From assembly GCF_018873765.1 (NCBI RefSeq), contig NC_057923.1, positions 9,746,413 to 9,810,412 on the forward strand: 64,000 nucleotides of DNA. Reading direction: 5' to 3'. The translations under genes and the position numbers were made by a program. Positions 10,046 to 50,395 of this stretch are shown here, piece after piece. Source of the stretch: Telopea speciosissima (lineage: Eukaryota; Streptophyta; Magnoliopsida; Proteales; Proteaceae). The notes beneath the pieces are model-generated. The model was not told where the DNA came from. It saw only the letters and a program-made list of their open reading frames with translations, and made no database searches. Within the stretch, counting starts at the first letter, position 1, and every line of letters starts with the position of its first letter.

Positions 10046-10104
10046 ATATGCTTTTCATTTTTCTACCAAAAAAAATAATATAAAAAAAATATATGCTTTT
10101 CATT
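10046..10104 (+). mobile_element. Micro-insertion (31 bp) with 14-bp TSD
   Basis: ATATGCTTTTCATT at 10046-10059 is repeated exactly at 10091-10104. The 31 bp between them read TTTCTACC followed by an A-rich run. The form is that of a LINE-mediated insertion reduced to a tail. Confidence 0.75.
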
Positions 10105-10426
10105 CTGGTAAAGAAAAAGTAAGAGAATAGAGCCTTTGTAAAGGGTTAATCGTTAATGAGGATAAAGCCTCTTTTTGAGGATTTAAATGCCAATCCGTGT
10201 GAGCAAAAAGGTAGACCAAGTGATGCCATGGTGAAGTGACGATCACAATGCTTGCTATTGAAAGGGAAGTATCATTCTTTGAACGTGTCATTTTCTTTCA
10301 AAAACAAGAAAAAAAATTCCGAATTGTAATTTAAAGAGAAAATTTGTTGTCATTAAGGATGGAGAGAATCTCTTCATCCACCATGATGTGACCATATGAT
10401 TTTTTTTTTATTGCAAACAACCACTA

Positions 10427-10637
10427 ACTCCGTTGGTTGGAGGCATTGTAAGTTGAGTGCATGGCCCCCAGGAGGTCAAGGGGTTGACTCTCCTGGATTG
10501 CATATTGTGCCAAAAAGGCACCCCTCCCCTCTCCCCCCTCTCCCACTAGTTGTAGATTGTGGGCTTGTCTTAGCCTTCCCCCTTAGCTTGTAGTTGGCCT
10601 GTGGGCCCTTGAGTAGGATAGACCCAAAAAAATAAAA
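10427..10637 (+). mobile_element. tRNA-derived SINE with poly(A) tail and 12-bp TSD
   Basis: AAACAACCACTA at 10415-10426 and AAACAACTACTA at 10638-10649 flank 211 bp ending GATAGACCCAAAAAAATAA. A tRNA-like 5' part is suggested by a CCGTTGGTTGG A-box-like stretch and GGGTTGACTCTCC, close to a pol III B-box. The tail form (ACCC then A-run) matches the micro-insertions elsewhere in the window. Confidence 0.65.
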
Positions 10638-11045
10638 AAACAACTACTACTACTTTTATTGTACGTGGTCAAAACTATTCCTTCTATTCAATCCAAGGTC
10701 AGATATGATGTTATAACAGTTTGTCACTTCTCTACTAGTGAAGGAAAACTCGATGCTTAATTTAAAGGGATTTTCTTATATACCCTGAAGGTGTCAAAAA
10801 ATTGTAATTTTATTTTTTTATCCTCATATTATGACACATTTTTTTAATGATAGTAATAGTATCATTTCACATGAATACTTGAAAAAGTGTGCATAAATGA
10901 CATTTTCTGATCATGATATAATGATACGTCACTTTCAAATTCTTTATGAAAACCCTATCTTAAAGAGCTTTTGAGAATAAATCGAACCAATTAAAAGAAG
11001 GTGTCAAATTCTAAATACACCTGTAAAGGTGTCATTCGAATTCAG

Positions 11046-11314
11046 CTCCTCTGCTTCCAAAGGTGGTACTTTCGAGTTTCGTCCTACTTCCGAACGTTCT
11101 CAGTGAGCCACCCGGCTTGAAAACCATCCAACGGTTGATATTGAAAAAATTCAAATTATTTTGAAAACACCTGAGATGTGTTTGAACCCCAAGGTGGTTT
11201 TCAAAATAATTTGAATTTTTTTCAATAGCAACCATTGGACGGTTGTCAGGTTACATGGCACACTGAGAGCGCTCGAAAGTAGGACGACAGTACCACCTTT
11301 GGAAGTAGAGGAGT
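11046..11314. mobile_element. Mutator-type MITE, long hairpin, 9-bp TSD
   Basis: Arms beginning CTCCTCTGCTTCCAAAGGTG fold back on each other nearly end to end (about 130 bp each, loop around 11175-11190). CGAATTCAG occurs directly outside both ends (11037-11045 and 11315-11323), the 9-bp duplication expected of Mutator-like elements. The ORF on its minus strand at 11032-11235 is a shadow of the arms. Confidence 0.85.
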
Positions 11315-11358
11315 CGAATTCAGTCTCTAATTTAAAAGGATTAAATGTATAGTTAAGA

Positions 11359-11515
11359 TATGCTGTGTTTGGTATGCATTCTGAGATGAGATGATAAAAA
11401 CAGTGAAAAGTACAATATCAAAATGCGTTATCAACTAGAATGCATACAAACACATCCTTAGTTTGAAATACTCAAGTTTGAAAAGTACAACTACAATGCA
11501 TACAAACACAGCCTT
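11359..11515. mobile_element. MITE with GCTGTGTTTGGTATGCAT ends
   Basis: The start GCTGTGTTTGGTATGCATTC and the end AATGCATACAAACACAGCC are inverted copies. A second inverted copy (AGAATGCATACAAACACATCC, shown here as two blocks) lies internally near 11435-11455, suggesting a nested or partly duplicated element. No coding capacity. Confidence 0.6.
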
Positions 11516-11944
11516 AAATTGATTAGGCGAATCATTCACACCTCAGTTTATAGTTGAAATACTCAAGTTGACTTTGGTGAGCCGGCTAATCAACTTCAAG
11601 AGCAGGAAAATATTTGCAACCACTTGCTTTCCCTTTGTTATCCTTCAGGGTTTCAATCCATGCTTCTCCAAAGAGGAGGCATAGGGCATATACCCGCCTG
11701 AAATTGATATGTGCTCATATATGGGTGAGAGTTCATGTTCTACGTACTTAGTTGTGCAACATGGAAGGAAGTATATGTGGTTGAGAATTGAGATTCTCAA
11801 CTCCCATGGAACATCACACCTAATATGTTATCCTACCAACAACTGTATCATATGTTGTCATTATTAATCACCAGTTGCATACATGGCTTAATGGGATCAA
11901 CCTCACCCGCCGGAATAAGCCAGAATTGCCTGAACCCTAGAAAT

Positions 11945-12010
11945 AAAATGAGACAATTATAAAAATAAAAATAAAAAAGAAGAAGAAAAAGAAAAAGAAA
12001 AATGAGACAA
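11945..12010 (+). mobile_element. A-rich micro-insertion (42 bp) with 12-bp TSD
   Basis: AAAATGAGACAA at 11945-11956 recurs at 11999-12010. The insert is 42 bp of A-rich sequence with AAGAAG and AAAAAG repeats. It lacks the ACC start seen in most other micro-insertions, so slippage in a purine tract is an alternative. Confidence 0.55.
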
Positions 12011-47885: not shown

Positions 47886-47956
47886 GAATTATGTTAACTC
47901 CCTATTGTTGTACAACTGTATTTGCCACGGTTAACGGCTGTACATTTCTTCAATAT

Positions 47957-48029
47957 AATTTGAGGAGATTCATAGGTGTTTTGGTTACTGAATATAACTT
48001 GAGTAGATTCATAGGTGTTTTGGTTACTG
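47957..48029. repeat. 39-bp tandem duplication
   Basis: Two adjacent units contain AGATTCATAGGTGTTTTGG and differ at two bases; they lie just past the CRT3 poly(A) signal. Confidence 0.8.
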
Positions 48030-49106
48030 ATCTCATACTATGCTGAAGAATTTGGCTCTGATTATGTGTCCTGTTCAGATATAGTTTTTTTTTTTTTTTT
48101 TCTCTGCCCTAGTGTAGTATAGCGTTAGCGCTTAAAATCTTGATTGGATTAATGGCAGTTAAGTTGTTTCCTTACCGATAGCCCTTGATCGAAGCATAAT
48201 GGAAGCACCACCCTAAGCTCAGGTGTAGTGTTTGTGACCCAGATTGGTTCAAGGGGTAGTAACTTAAAATGGTTTTGGAGGGAACAAGTTTTTTGTTGGA
48301 TTGAGCAGAGATCTAAAGGATCAGCATTGATTGCCATGTCCTAAGCTCTGGCCAAACCCAAGTGAAAAAGTTAATCTTGTTAAAATATTGGTGCAAATGT
48401 TGAAGTCTTTTGGTACTATATAGGCCTGAGATCAAATCTGTGTTCCAACTTGTTACCTCTTTAATAAAAAGTGAGTCATAGCTTAAATGTCTTTCCGCAT
48501 CACCTCTCTCCTTGTTGCCGAATTCATTGATTGTGGCCAGCGTGTTATTACTTGAAGGATTCCGAAATAGAGAATGGCTTGACATGCTTGAGATCTGTGA
48601 AGCTTGTAGAGGATCGTGCCATCTTTTTTACAATCTCTTCATTTTATTGTTTTGTACGGCTTCAGTTTAGTGCATCAAAACTTCTCAAGTACAACTACTT
48701 TATATCCAAAAGATGGTGAGGGACTCGAGGGGATTTTCATCCTCTCAAGTGCGGTGAATTGCCCAATGCACCACATTTAAGAATTCAACCGTAAAAACAT
48801 GAAGAGTGACGTCTTTTTATCCTCTCGAGTTCCTCATAATCCTCATCCCTCTATGTTTCTAATTTTACTTTCTACAATAGATTGAATAGGCATTTAGCCT
48901 TTGTGATTGCTCCTCTTCCGTGTTTTTTCTTCGCCATCTTAGTCCTAGTTTCGGTGTTCTGATTTAATGGAGCACAACCACCTACTTCAGTTACCAACCA
49001 TTCCCAGCAGCTCCGGTGATAGGGAGTTCAAATTTATTAATATTTGGGATCAGTTTCACTCCCTCCCCAAGCACTCTTATCTATTGATTTTTGCACCTTA
49101 TTTAAG

Positions 49107-49166
49107 TGAAATAGAATTCATCCGCCCCACCCCCCCCCCCCCCCAAAAAAAATGAAATAGAAATTC
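49107..49166 (+). mobile_element. Micro-insertion with 13-bp TSD and poly(C)-poly(A) body
   Basis: TGAAATAGAATTC (49107-49119) and TGAAATAGAAATTC (49153-49166) flank ATCCGCCCCAC followed by a long C run and eight A. The C run has probably expanded by slippage. Confidence 0.65.
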
Positions 49167-49184
49167 TGAAACAGCTAAGGAGTT

Positions 49185-49471
49185 TTTCTTTTTTATGAAA
49201 GTGTAATCACACAAACCACACACTGACACACCAATCCCAAAAGGTTAGCCGACTTTTATGACCATGGAATGACGGATATACACAACACACACCACACTCA
49301 CACACCCGATGTGGGACTAAAACCACACACCCTTTCTTTTCTTTTGATGAAAGAGTAATCACACAAAACCACACACCAACCCCAAAAGGTTAACCGACTT
49401 TTAGGACCGTGGAATGGTGGATATACACAACACACACCACACACACACCCGACGTGGGACTAAACCCACAC
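49185..49471 (-). mobile_element. Dimeric A-tailed retroposon with 17-bp TSD
   Basis: GAAACAGCTAAGGAGTT (49168-49184) and GAAATAGCTAAGGAGTT (49472-49488) flank 287 bp made of two head-to-tail copies of a unit of about 140 bp. On the minus strand each unit begins near a TAGTCCCAC block and ends with a CATCAAAAGAAAAGAAA-type A-rich tail, one internal and one terminal. This is the arrangement of a dimeric SINE-like retroposon. The motif GTGGGACTAAA also occurs at 23568. Confidence 0.65.
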
Positions 49472-49884
49472 GAAATAGCTAAGGAGTTGTTTCAGAATAT
49501 ATATTTCATTTGATTTTATTCTTCTTTAATGAGCATATGATTAGTTTGATGGGCAAAGTAGTAATTTCATGTTAAAAATAAAACGCCACCCTTCTTCTTC
49601 TCCTATTGGTCTCACCACCACCATCGCAGCCACCACCACCACCACCACCACCCTTTCCAAAGAAATGTAGAGAATTTATTCTCAGAAATTGAACTACCAA
49701 ATGGATTTTTTATTCTTAAAATATATCATATTGCTACAACCAAAGCAATTTCAATTTTTTGACCACAAATCTATTTGTTGACTATTTCAAGAAATCAATC
49801 CAATGACTTGGGTAGCCATGGTCTGATCTTCACCTAAAGCAACAAACACCTGGGATCAACGAACAATAGAATCCGCTCTTGCCC

Positions 49885-50395
49885 TCTTTTTATGGAACCT
49901 CTAAAATCCCCAATACCTGATGCCTTCCCCTTGCCTTCTATCAGAAATTCTAGGATATTACTTAGACGGATCTCTCAACCTTTGTTATTGAGTTCTTTCA
50001 AATTAGCATGCTCCCATCTTCAGTCAATAAAACTCTTCTCTGCCTCATCCCCAAAGTTGATAATCCAAAAGCTGCTGAGCAATTCCGACCAATTAGTCTC
50101 TGTAATGTTGCAATCAATGTGATCACAAAAATCATGGCTTTCCGTTTACAACTCCTCCTACCTGAAGTCATATCTCCAACTATTTACCAAAAAAAAAAAA
50201 ATCTCCAACTCAGTCAACATTTGTGCCTAATAGGTTAATTTCTGATAGCATATACATAACTCATGAAGCTTTCCATTACATTAAGAAGCGCAACAAAAAA
50301 AAAAAAAAAAAAAAAAAAAAAAAGAGTTGCTATGAAACTAGACATGAGAAAGGCTTACGATCACCTCGAAGTCGACAAAACTATCTGATATGGCC
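49885..50395 (+). mobile_element. L1-type LINE reverse-transcriptase fragment
   Basis: Across two frames it reads NKTLLCLIPKVDNPKAAEQF, RPISLCNVAINVITKIMAFR, LLLPEVISPT, FVPNRLISDSIYITHEAFHY and later AMKLDMRKAYDH, the fingers and first palm motif of plant L1 reverse transcriptase. Two A-rich insertions break it: a micro-insertion at 50182-50200 and a run of about 30 A at 50296-50323. The element is 5' and 3' truncated. Confidence 0.85.
50172..50210 (+). mobile_element. Micro-insertion (19 bp) with 10-bp TSD inside the L1 frame
   Basis: ATCTCCAACT at 50172-50181 and 50201-50210 flank ATTTACC plus 12 A. Removing insert and one duplicate lets the L1 frame run from ISPT into QSTFVPNR as in other L1 elements, which proves this is an insertion. 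Confidence 0.88.

Follow-up and report, generated by a model that had tools for sequence, protein, structure and literature searches.

The window analysed here is a stretch of 64,000 nucleotides from Telopea speciosissima (NCBI RefSeq assembly GCF_018873765.1, contig NC_057923.1, positions 9,746,413 to 9,810,412 of the forward strand), with positions counted from its first letter. It carries nine inserts of 17 to 42 bp, each lying between the two copies of a direct repeat and, when read in the A-rich orientation, ending in an A-rich tail that adjoins the right copy (9/9). The nine had been claimed as products of aborted retroposition in an original prediction on this DNA. All of them were found again on re-measurement, the end of the insert at 21181 being corrected from 21216 to 21215.

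10046..10104, plus strand: TTTCTACC-A8-TAATAT-A8-T insert (10060-10090) in a 14-bp exact duplication
11945..12010, plus strand: A-rich 42-bp insert (11957-11998) with no ACC in a 12-bp exact duplication, the weakest member; left junction CTAGAAAT/AAAATG
21168..21228, minus strand: ACCAC-A12-GAAAG... insert (21181-21215) in an 11/13 duplication whose terminal TTT completes TTTACCACA, as at 22904
22894..22934, minus strand: TTTTACCACAC-A8-GG insert (22904-22924) in a 10-bp exact duplication
24004..24053, minus strand: AATTACC-A4-(TAAA)n insert (24017-24040) in a 13-bp exact duplication; target AATT/AAAAAAAGG
29261..29317, minus strand: CTACC-A8-GGAA insert (29281-29297) in a 20-bp exact duplication whose TTT completes TTTCTACC, as at 10060
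30079..30140, plus strand: CCACCC-A15-CAAAA insert (30097-30122) in an 18-bp exact duplication
49107..49166, plus strand: ATCCGCCCCACCC(n)-A8 insert (49120-49152) around a 10-bp exact duplication core, a loose member
50172..50210, plus strand: ATTTACC-A12 insert (50182-50200) in a 10-bp exact duplication, within a reverse-transcriptase relic whose frame is broken by 29 bp

Duplications, chance and an interrupted frame

The flanking repeats had been described as 10-20 bp long and mostly exact, which holds: eight of the nine are exact over at least 10 bp (14 bp at 10060, 12 at 11957, 10 at 22904, 13 at 24017, 20 at 29281, 18 at 30097, 10 at 49120 and 10 at 50182), and that at 21181 matches at 11 of 13 positions. 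At 49120 the exact core belongs to a longer duplication that reads as 11/13 ungapped, or, on our reading, as 13 versus 14 bp with a one-base indel. Direct repeats of 10-30 bp were counted in the window and in 200 dinucleotide shuffles of its 1-kb blocks, low-complexity repeats being dropped and tandem arrays kept. With spacers of 10-50 bp, 34 pairs were observed versus a shuffle mean of 2.4. Five of these spacers contained an A/T run of at least 7 (0.035 in shuffles) and six were A- or T-rich (0.04 in shuffles). In the six longer distance bins the real sequence gave no A/T-rich spacer; spacers containing an A/T run numbered 1, 1, 0, 1, 0 and 2, as expected of longer spacers. The duplication-flanked A-run structures of this window thus stand well above chance.

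The insert at 50182 interrupts a recognizable coding relic:

49966..50376, plus strand: reverse-transcriptase relic, target of the 50182 insertion (Pfam RVT_1; right end set by reading of the frame)

Pfam gives RVT_1 only, and we take the relic to be L1-like. The 19-bp insert and one 10-bp copy of the duplication amount to 29 bp (in 50172-50210), which is not a multiple of three and breaks the frame, while the flanks joined without them form a single continuous frame. The joined 98 residues score 28.1 bits against RVT_1 (E 2e-6), just below the curated cut-off of 29.6, and the left flank by itself scores 14.4 bits (E 0.032); the frame read directly through the insert matched no Pfam family at E 0.001, and a joined piece of 46 residues, too short for the purpose, gave no match at E 0.1. 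Because the 29 bp break the frame, the insertion at 50182 is later than the element in which it lies. The long exact duplications and the frame restored at 50182 argue for insertion rather than slippage, as had been proposed. The same relic also holds a run of A29 (50295-50323); no duplication was detected around it, and it therefore likely grew by slippage.

The YTACC end and the insert junctions

ACC or ACCC had been said to precede the A-run in eight of the nine inserts. Seven have it, reading in the A-rich orientation TTTCTACC (10060), (TTT)ACCAC (21181), TTTTACCACAC (22904), AATTACC (24017), CTACC (29281), CCACCC (30097) and ATTTACC (50182); 49120 agrees loosely, through a C-run, and 11957, which starts TTAT-A5-T..., has none. 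In each of the six ACC-A inserts a T stands before ACC, that of 21181 lying inside the duplication. With 11957 left out, the bases before the first run of at least four A's number 8 at 10060, 5 at 21181, 11 at 22904, 7 at 24017, 5 at 29281, 6 at 30097, 25 at 49120 and 7 at 50182. For seven of the eight ACC-type inserts this would put the copying stop at 5-11 nt before the tail.

The two strands together have 69 separate A-tracts of at least 7, over which the association was measured: six come with an exact duplication at a spacer of up to 60 and 63 without. ACC lies within 8 nt upstream of 5/6 of the former and 7/63 of the latter (Fisher p=0.0004), so that the enrichment anticipated by the original prediction is present in this window, and when labels were permuted over all trimers 2/300 permutations did as well. 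At a cut-off of 6 the counts are 5/10 versus 13/149 (p=0.0019; 2/300 permutations) and the best trimer is TAC, ahead of ACC; three of the five duplication-flanked tracts without ACC (5276, 36672 and 59813) are outside the original list. At a cut-off of 8 they are 5/6 versus 3/41 (p=0.0002; 0/300). The association is real, rests on few cases and concerns a motif picked post hoc. ACC or ACCC stands immediately before nine A-runs of at least 7. Four of these runs belong to micro-inserts, one forms the tail of a short interspersed nuclear element (SINE) at 10427-10637, and the remaining four (27739, 32595, 42625, 55590) are neither. All three such runs preceded by TACC (10068, 29285, 50189) are micro-inserts.

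T is the last base of the left duplication copy in 7/8 ACC-type inserts (p=0.0014) and 7/9 overall (p=0.005), a post hoc count in which 49120 is taken as ending in C; among other structures the figures are 2/11 on the plus strand and 3/11 on the minus strand. The word TTTCTACC lies wholly inside the insert at 10060 and across the junction at 29281 (duplication end GTTT, insert start CTACC). In the same way TTTACCACA lies wholly inside the insert at 22904 and across the junction at 21181 (duplication end CTTT, insert start ACCACA). Both pairs look like microhomology between T's of the target and a putative source ending TTTYTACC or TTTACCACA. Junction microhomology is reported for nearly 80% of human 5'-truncated L1s (PMC2912911), with which the duplication-end T's, readable as microhomology to the source, would agree; unlike here, where ends cluster 5-11 nt before the tail, that work dealt with truncation over whole elements.

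Two further places resemble these structures. At 5264-5312 a 10-bp exact repeat, ATGAATATTT, encloses an A-rich 29-bp spacer that starts ACAAAAAA, with TTTAC before the A's, possibly a further member. At 42601-42651 a C-run is followed by TAACCC-A11 and C-T7, so that an A-run and a T-run stand head to head beside a C-run like that of 49120; the best repeat around it is 9 bp, which is at chance level.

Probable target-primed stubs and competing explanations

The inserts are probably, in a judgement of moderate confidence, 3' stubs of retroposed RNAs ending approximately in YTACC-A(n) and made by L1-type target-primed reverse transcription. An L1-type endonuclease and reverse transcriptase would nick an AT-rich target and prime on the poly(A) tail. 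The tail and 5-11 further bases (25 in the loose case of 49120) would be copied before a stop, the new end of the complementary DNA (cDNA), GGTAGAAA or GGTAAAA, would pair through its A's with T's at the cut in the top strand, and second-strand synthesis from the annealed end would leave the stub between duplications of 10-20 bp. The cDNA may anneal early at a T-rich word within a few bases of the tail, so that very short inserts would be favoured. Three parts of this scheme are presumptive: the class of enzyme, one shared source RNA, and annealing to T's as what fixes the 5' end. The duplications, exact over 10-20 bp in 8/9 and 11/13 in one, fit L1-type retroposition, target-site duplications of human L1 being given as 4-20 bp (PMC4859970). 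Reverse-transcriptase relics of long interspersed nuclear elements (LINEs) are present in the window, and a poly(A) 3' end is reported for nearly all L1s of flowering plants and for over half of plant SINEs (PMC3747384). The aborted L1-type retroposition of the original prediction is retained in part: A-tail, duplications and shared short 3' end fit near-complete 5' truncation, and the SINE at 10427 is unlikely as the source.

Several points weigh against target-primed stubs. The restored frame is an independent but indirect sign of an empty site in one of the nine inserts and no proof for the other eight. A TT/AAAA-like site at the start of the duplication, judged by eye, is clear at 24017 only, partial at 11957 and 21181 and weak or absent at the other six. 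Two tails end in other bases than A-runs, GGAA at 29281 and GG at 22904. Two duplication-flanked A-runs lack ACC, 42084 (10 bp, spacer 97) and 47788 (12/13, spacer 51), and fall outside the six counted above by the spacer limit and the exactness required. Duplications without A-rich spacers outnumber those with them, 12 versus 6 at the same threshold and with overlapping repeat lengths. Lastly, when the 4 kb upstream of each A-run of at least 7 (73 runs) was searched, no longer YTACC-A(n) copy with a duplication stood out; the search is blunt and would miss diverged duplications, the 11/12 repeat of the SINE scoring 8, inside the background. The three best duplications that it gave (scores 20, 18 and 14) belong to micro-inserts, and the score of 10 at 50189 and 22906 is no higher than those of far pairs, which reach 12. 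Ordinary truncation should leave some longer copies, and that none was detected is what sits least easily with plain 5' truncation.

The wider count behind the comparison of 12 with 6 was limited to repeats no shorter than 11 bp with 10-50 bp between the copies, tandem arrays being left out apart from 50295 and from 11961, which is among the nine. It gave 18 structures, the six A/T-rich ones being five of the nine inserts and 34004, which has no A-run and no ACC. The sequence around three of the other twelve (11439, 27868, 29493) is locally repetitive, and these may be what is left of tandem repeats. Because these twelve exist, duplication around a short insert is not diagnostic by itself; it is the A-tail with YTACC that sets the micro-inserts apart. 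Direct repeats of 13-22 bp with spacers of 23-43 bp and no A-tails were noted at 34004-34064, 41951-42021, 36640-36691, 51287-51347, 4301-4369 and 28135-28217, and look like break-repair duplications with filler.

Staggered-break repair, in which the overhangs of two nearby nicks are filled in so that 10-20 bp are duplicated and A-rich filler, copied or untemplated, is inserted, is an unlikely origin of the nine, if the strongest of the rivals. A direct duplication surrounds all nine as well as the 12 non-A structures. At 41951-42021 a 12-bp word of the spacer recurs about 500 bp upstream, as in break repair with copied filler, and the 10060 insert has TTCTACCAAA in common with 9875, 185 bp upstream. 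Vaughn and Bennetzen reportedly described patch-repair tandem duplications in plants in 2014. The inserts resemble such duplications in being short duplications, common in plant DNA; unlike the inserts, however, patch repair predicts neither A-tails nor a shared 3' end, and break repair gives no reason for the shared YTACC or the frequency of A-run spacers. In rice, tandem duplications are reported as the commonest source of new insertions and ascribed to patch repair of adjacent nicks, in passages that are silent on filler (PMC7971508), and in mouse and human cells fill-in synthesis is reported to produce small tandem duplications at breaks with 3' overhangs (PMC8355091). A search for the junction words within 2 kb gives break repair little help: four of the nine inserts have none of at least 8 nt and the best is 10, compared with 229/300 (8 or more) and 52/300 (10 or more) for random 22-mers unmatched for A content. 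Local templating of the insert starts was set aside, there being no excess over these unmatched controls within 2 kb.

It is considerably less probable that the inserts are complete copies of a micro-element, made from a discrete very short RNA or limited by a strong block just upstream of the tail, and not truncations. The narrow range of 5-11 nt before the first A-run and the lack of a detected longer relative in the window would be expected of such an element, but the sample is of eight, the first bases vary (TTTCT, TTTT, AATT, ATTT, CT, CC), and neither ARAGORN nor Rfam at gathering scores finds an RNA gene, in a search confined to the window. Chance, slippage growth of A-runs or a reader's selection among ordinary simple repeats is already disfavoured and highly improbable, for although the motif was picked after the fact, 11957 lacks it, 49120 has it loosely and 42084 and 47788 are duplication-flanked without it, five structures were seen versus 0.035 in shuffles and the reverse-transcriptase frame broken at 50182 is continuous across the joined flanks.

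Candidate sources of the inserts and known relatives

The source originally put forward lies close to the first insert:

10415..10649, plus strand: SINE-like element (10427-10637, 211 bp) with tail GACCC-A(n) in an 11/12 duplication; proposed source, judged unlikely

Its 3' end is ATAGACCC-A7. The ACCC-A(n) tail is as described, and the 12-bp duplication is not exact, the flanking 12-mers matching at 11/12. The stubs are like plant poly(A) SINEs such as this one in their ACC(C)-A(n) end and duplication. They are unlike it in size and end, and the element is a poor source because T precedes ACC in six inserts: its end is GACCC, whereas TACC stands in six of the eight ACC-type inserts. The one near match is 30097 (CACCC), which could be an exception. 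An Angio-domain likeness is presumed for the element; its 3' end had 0 matches in viral and prokaryote contigs, as expected for plant DNA.

Other candidates were also set aside. At 32595, GTCGAACC-A7 with an 11-bp repeat and 747 bp between could be a longer element, but is within the range of far pairs and was taken for chance. Polyadenylated tRNA 3' ends (CCA-A(n)) came into view because ACC-A resembles a discriminator base followed by CCA; ARAGORN finds no tRNA gene in the window, and Rfam at gathering scores no other RNA gene there. No plant tRNA is known to fit a T before ACC together with the varied upstream bases. The telomere repeat, TTTAGGG, does not match TTTACC. Three related LINE relics, 71-76% alike, were noted at 34312-35473, 62958-63681 and, on the minus strand, 15435-15858, and are presumably of RTE type. 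An RTE LINE as source was rejected, the relic at 34312 being followed by a TTG-rich stretch; plant RTEs are reported to end (TTG)n or (TTGATG)n (PMC3747384).

For the rest, the window has a GC content of 0.35-0.41 per 4 kb and contains ATG9 and PTR2 pieces above the Pfam cut-offs. Slightly below theirs are an aldehyde dehydrogenase, at 21 bits against a cut-off of 23, and a reverse transcriptase, at 26.2 bits against 29.6. Taken by themselves, these genes and the repeats point most likely to plant nuclear DNA. Direct copies 96% alike at 24755-25134 and 26149-26528 surround a frame that looks gag-like, for which Pfam gave no match over 25059-25604; they perhaps belong to a small long terminal repeat (LTR) retrotransposon. 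Imperfect inverted repeats (75-77% self-complementary) at 11038-11321, 8629-8817 and 60023-60176 are perhaps foldback elements or like miniature inverted-repeat transposable elements.

The kind of insert is already known, since human L1 inserts that are almost wholly poly(A), plant L1s and SINEs with poly(A), and dicot retrocopies have been described. Somatic human L1 inserts that are nearly all poly(A) and have target duplications are reported (poly(A) plus 1 bp; 13 bp plus 49 A's; PMC4498532), and L1-like hallmarks are reported for retrocopies in dicots (PMC4838847). The stubs are like the extremely 5'-truncated L1s of human tumours in having poly(A), a few bases and a target duplication. 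They are unlike them in lying in what is most likely plant chromosomal DNA, in occurring several times within 41 kb, in the recurrent YTACC and in having no longer siblings detected. It is the recurring 3' end and the lack of detected longer copies that are unusual. Among the matches listed, titles and abstract openings mention no tail-only inserts in plants and no series of stubs within 41 kb sharing one recurring 3' end, which is weak evidence of absence.

A bolder extension, which we hold to be doubtful, is that L1-type machinery or a dedicated short RNA routinely gives stubs with a fixed T-rich YTACC 3' end that break off 5-11 nt before the tail. If this were true, tail stubs would be a main, uncounted product of retroposition in this genome and not rare accidents. 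Were such stubs general, a sizeable share of retroposition would leave stubs of 17-42 bp, probably too short for similarity searches to name; their shared 3' end would allow stubs to be counted, their source to be traced and what sets the cDNA stop to be tested, and the stubs would supply A-runs and small frameshifting insertions in genes.

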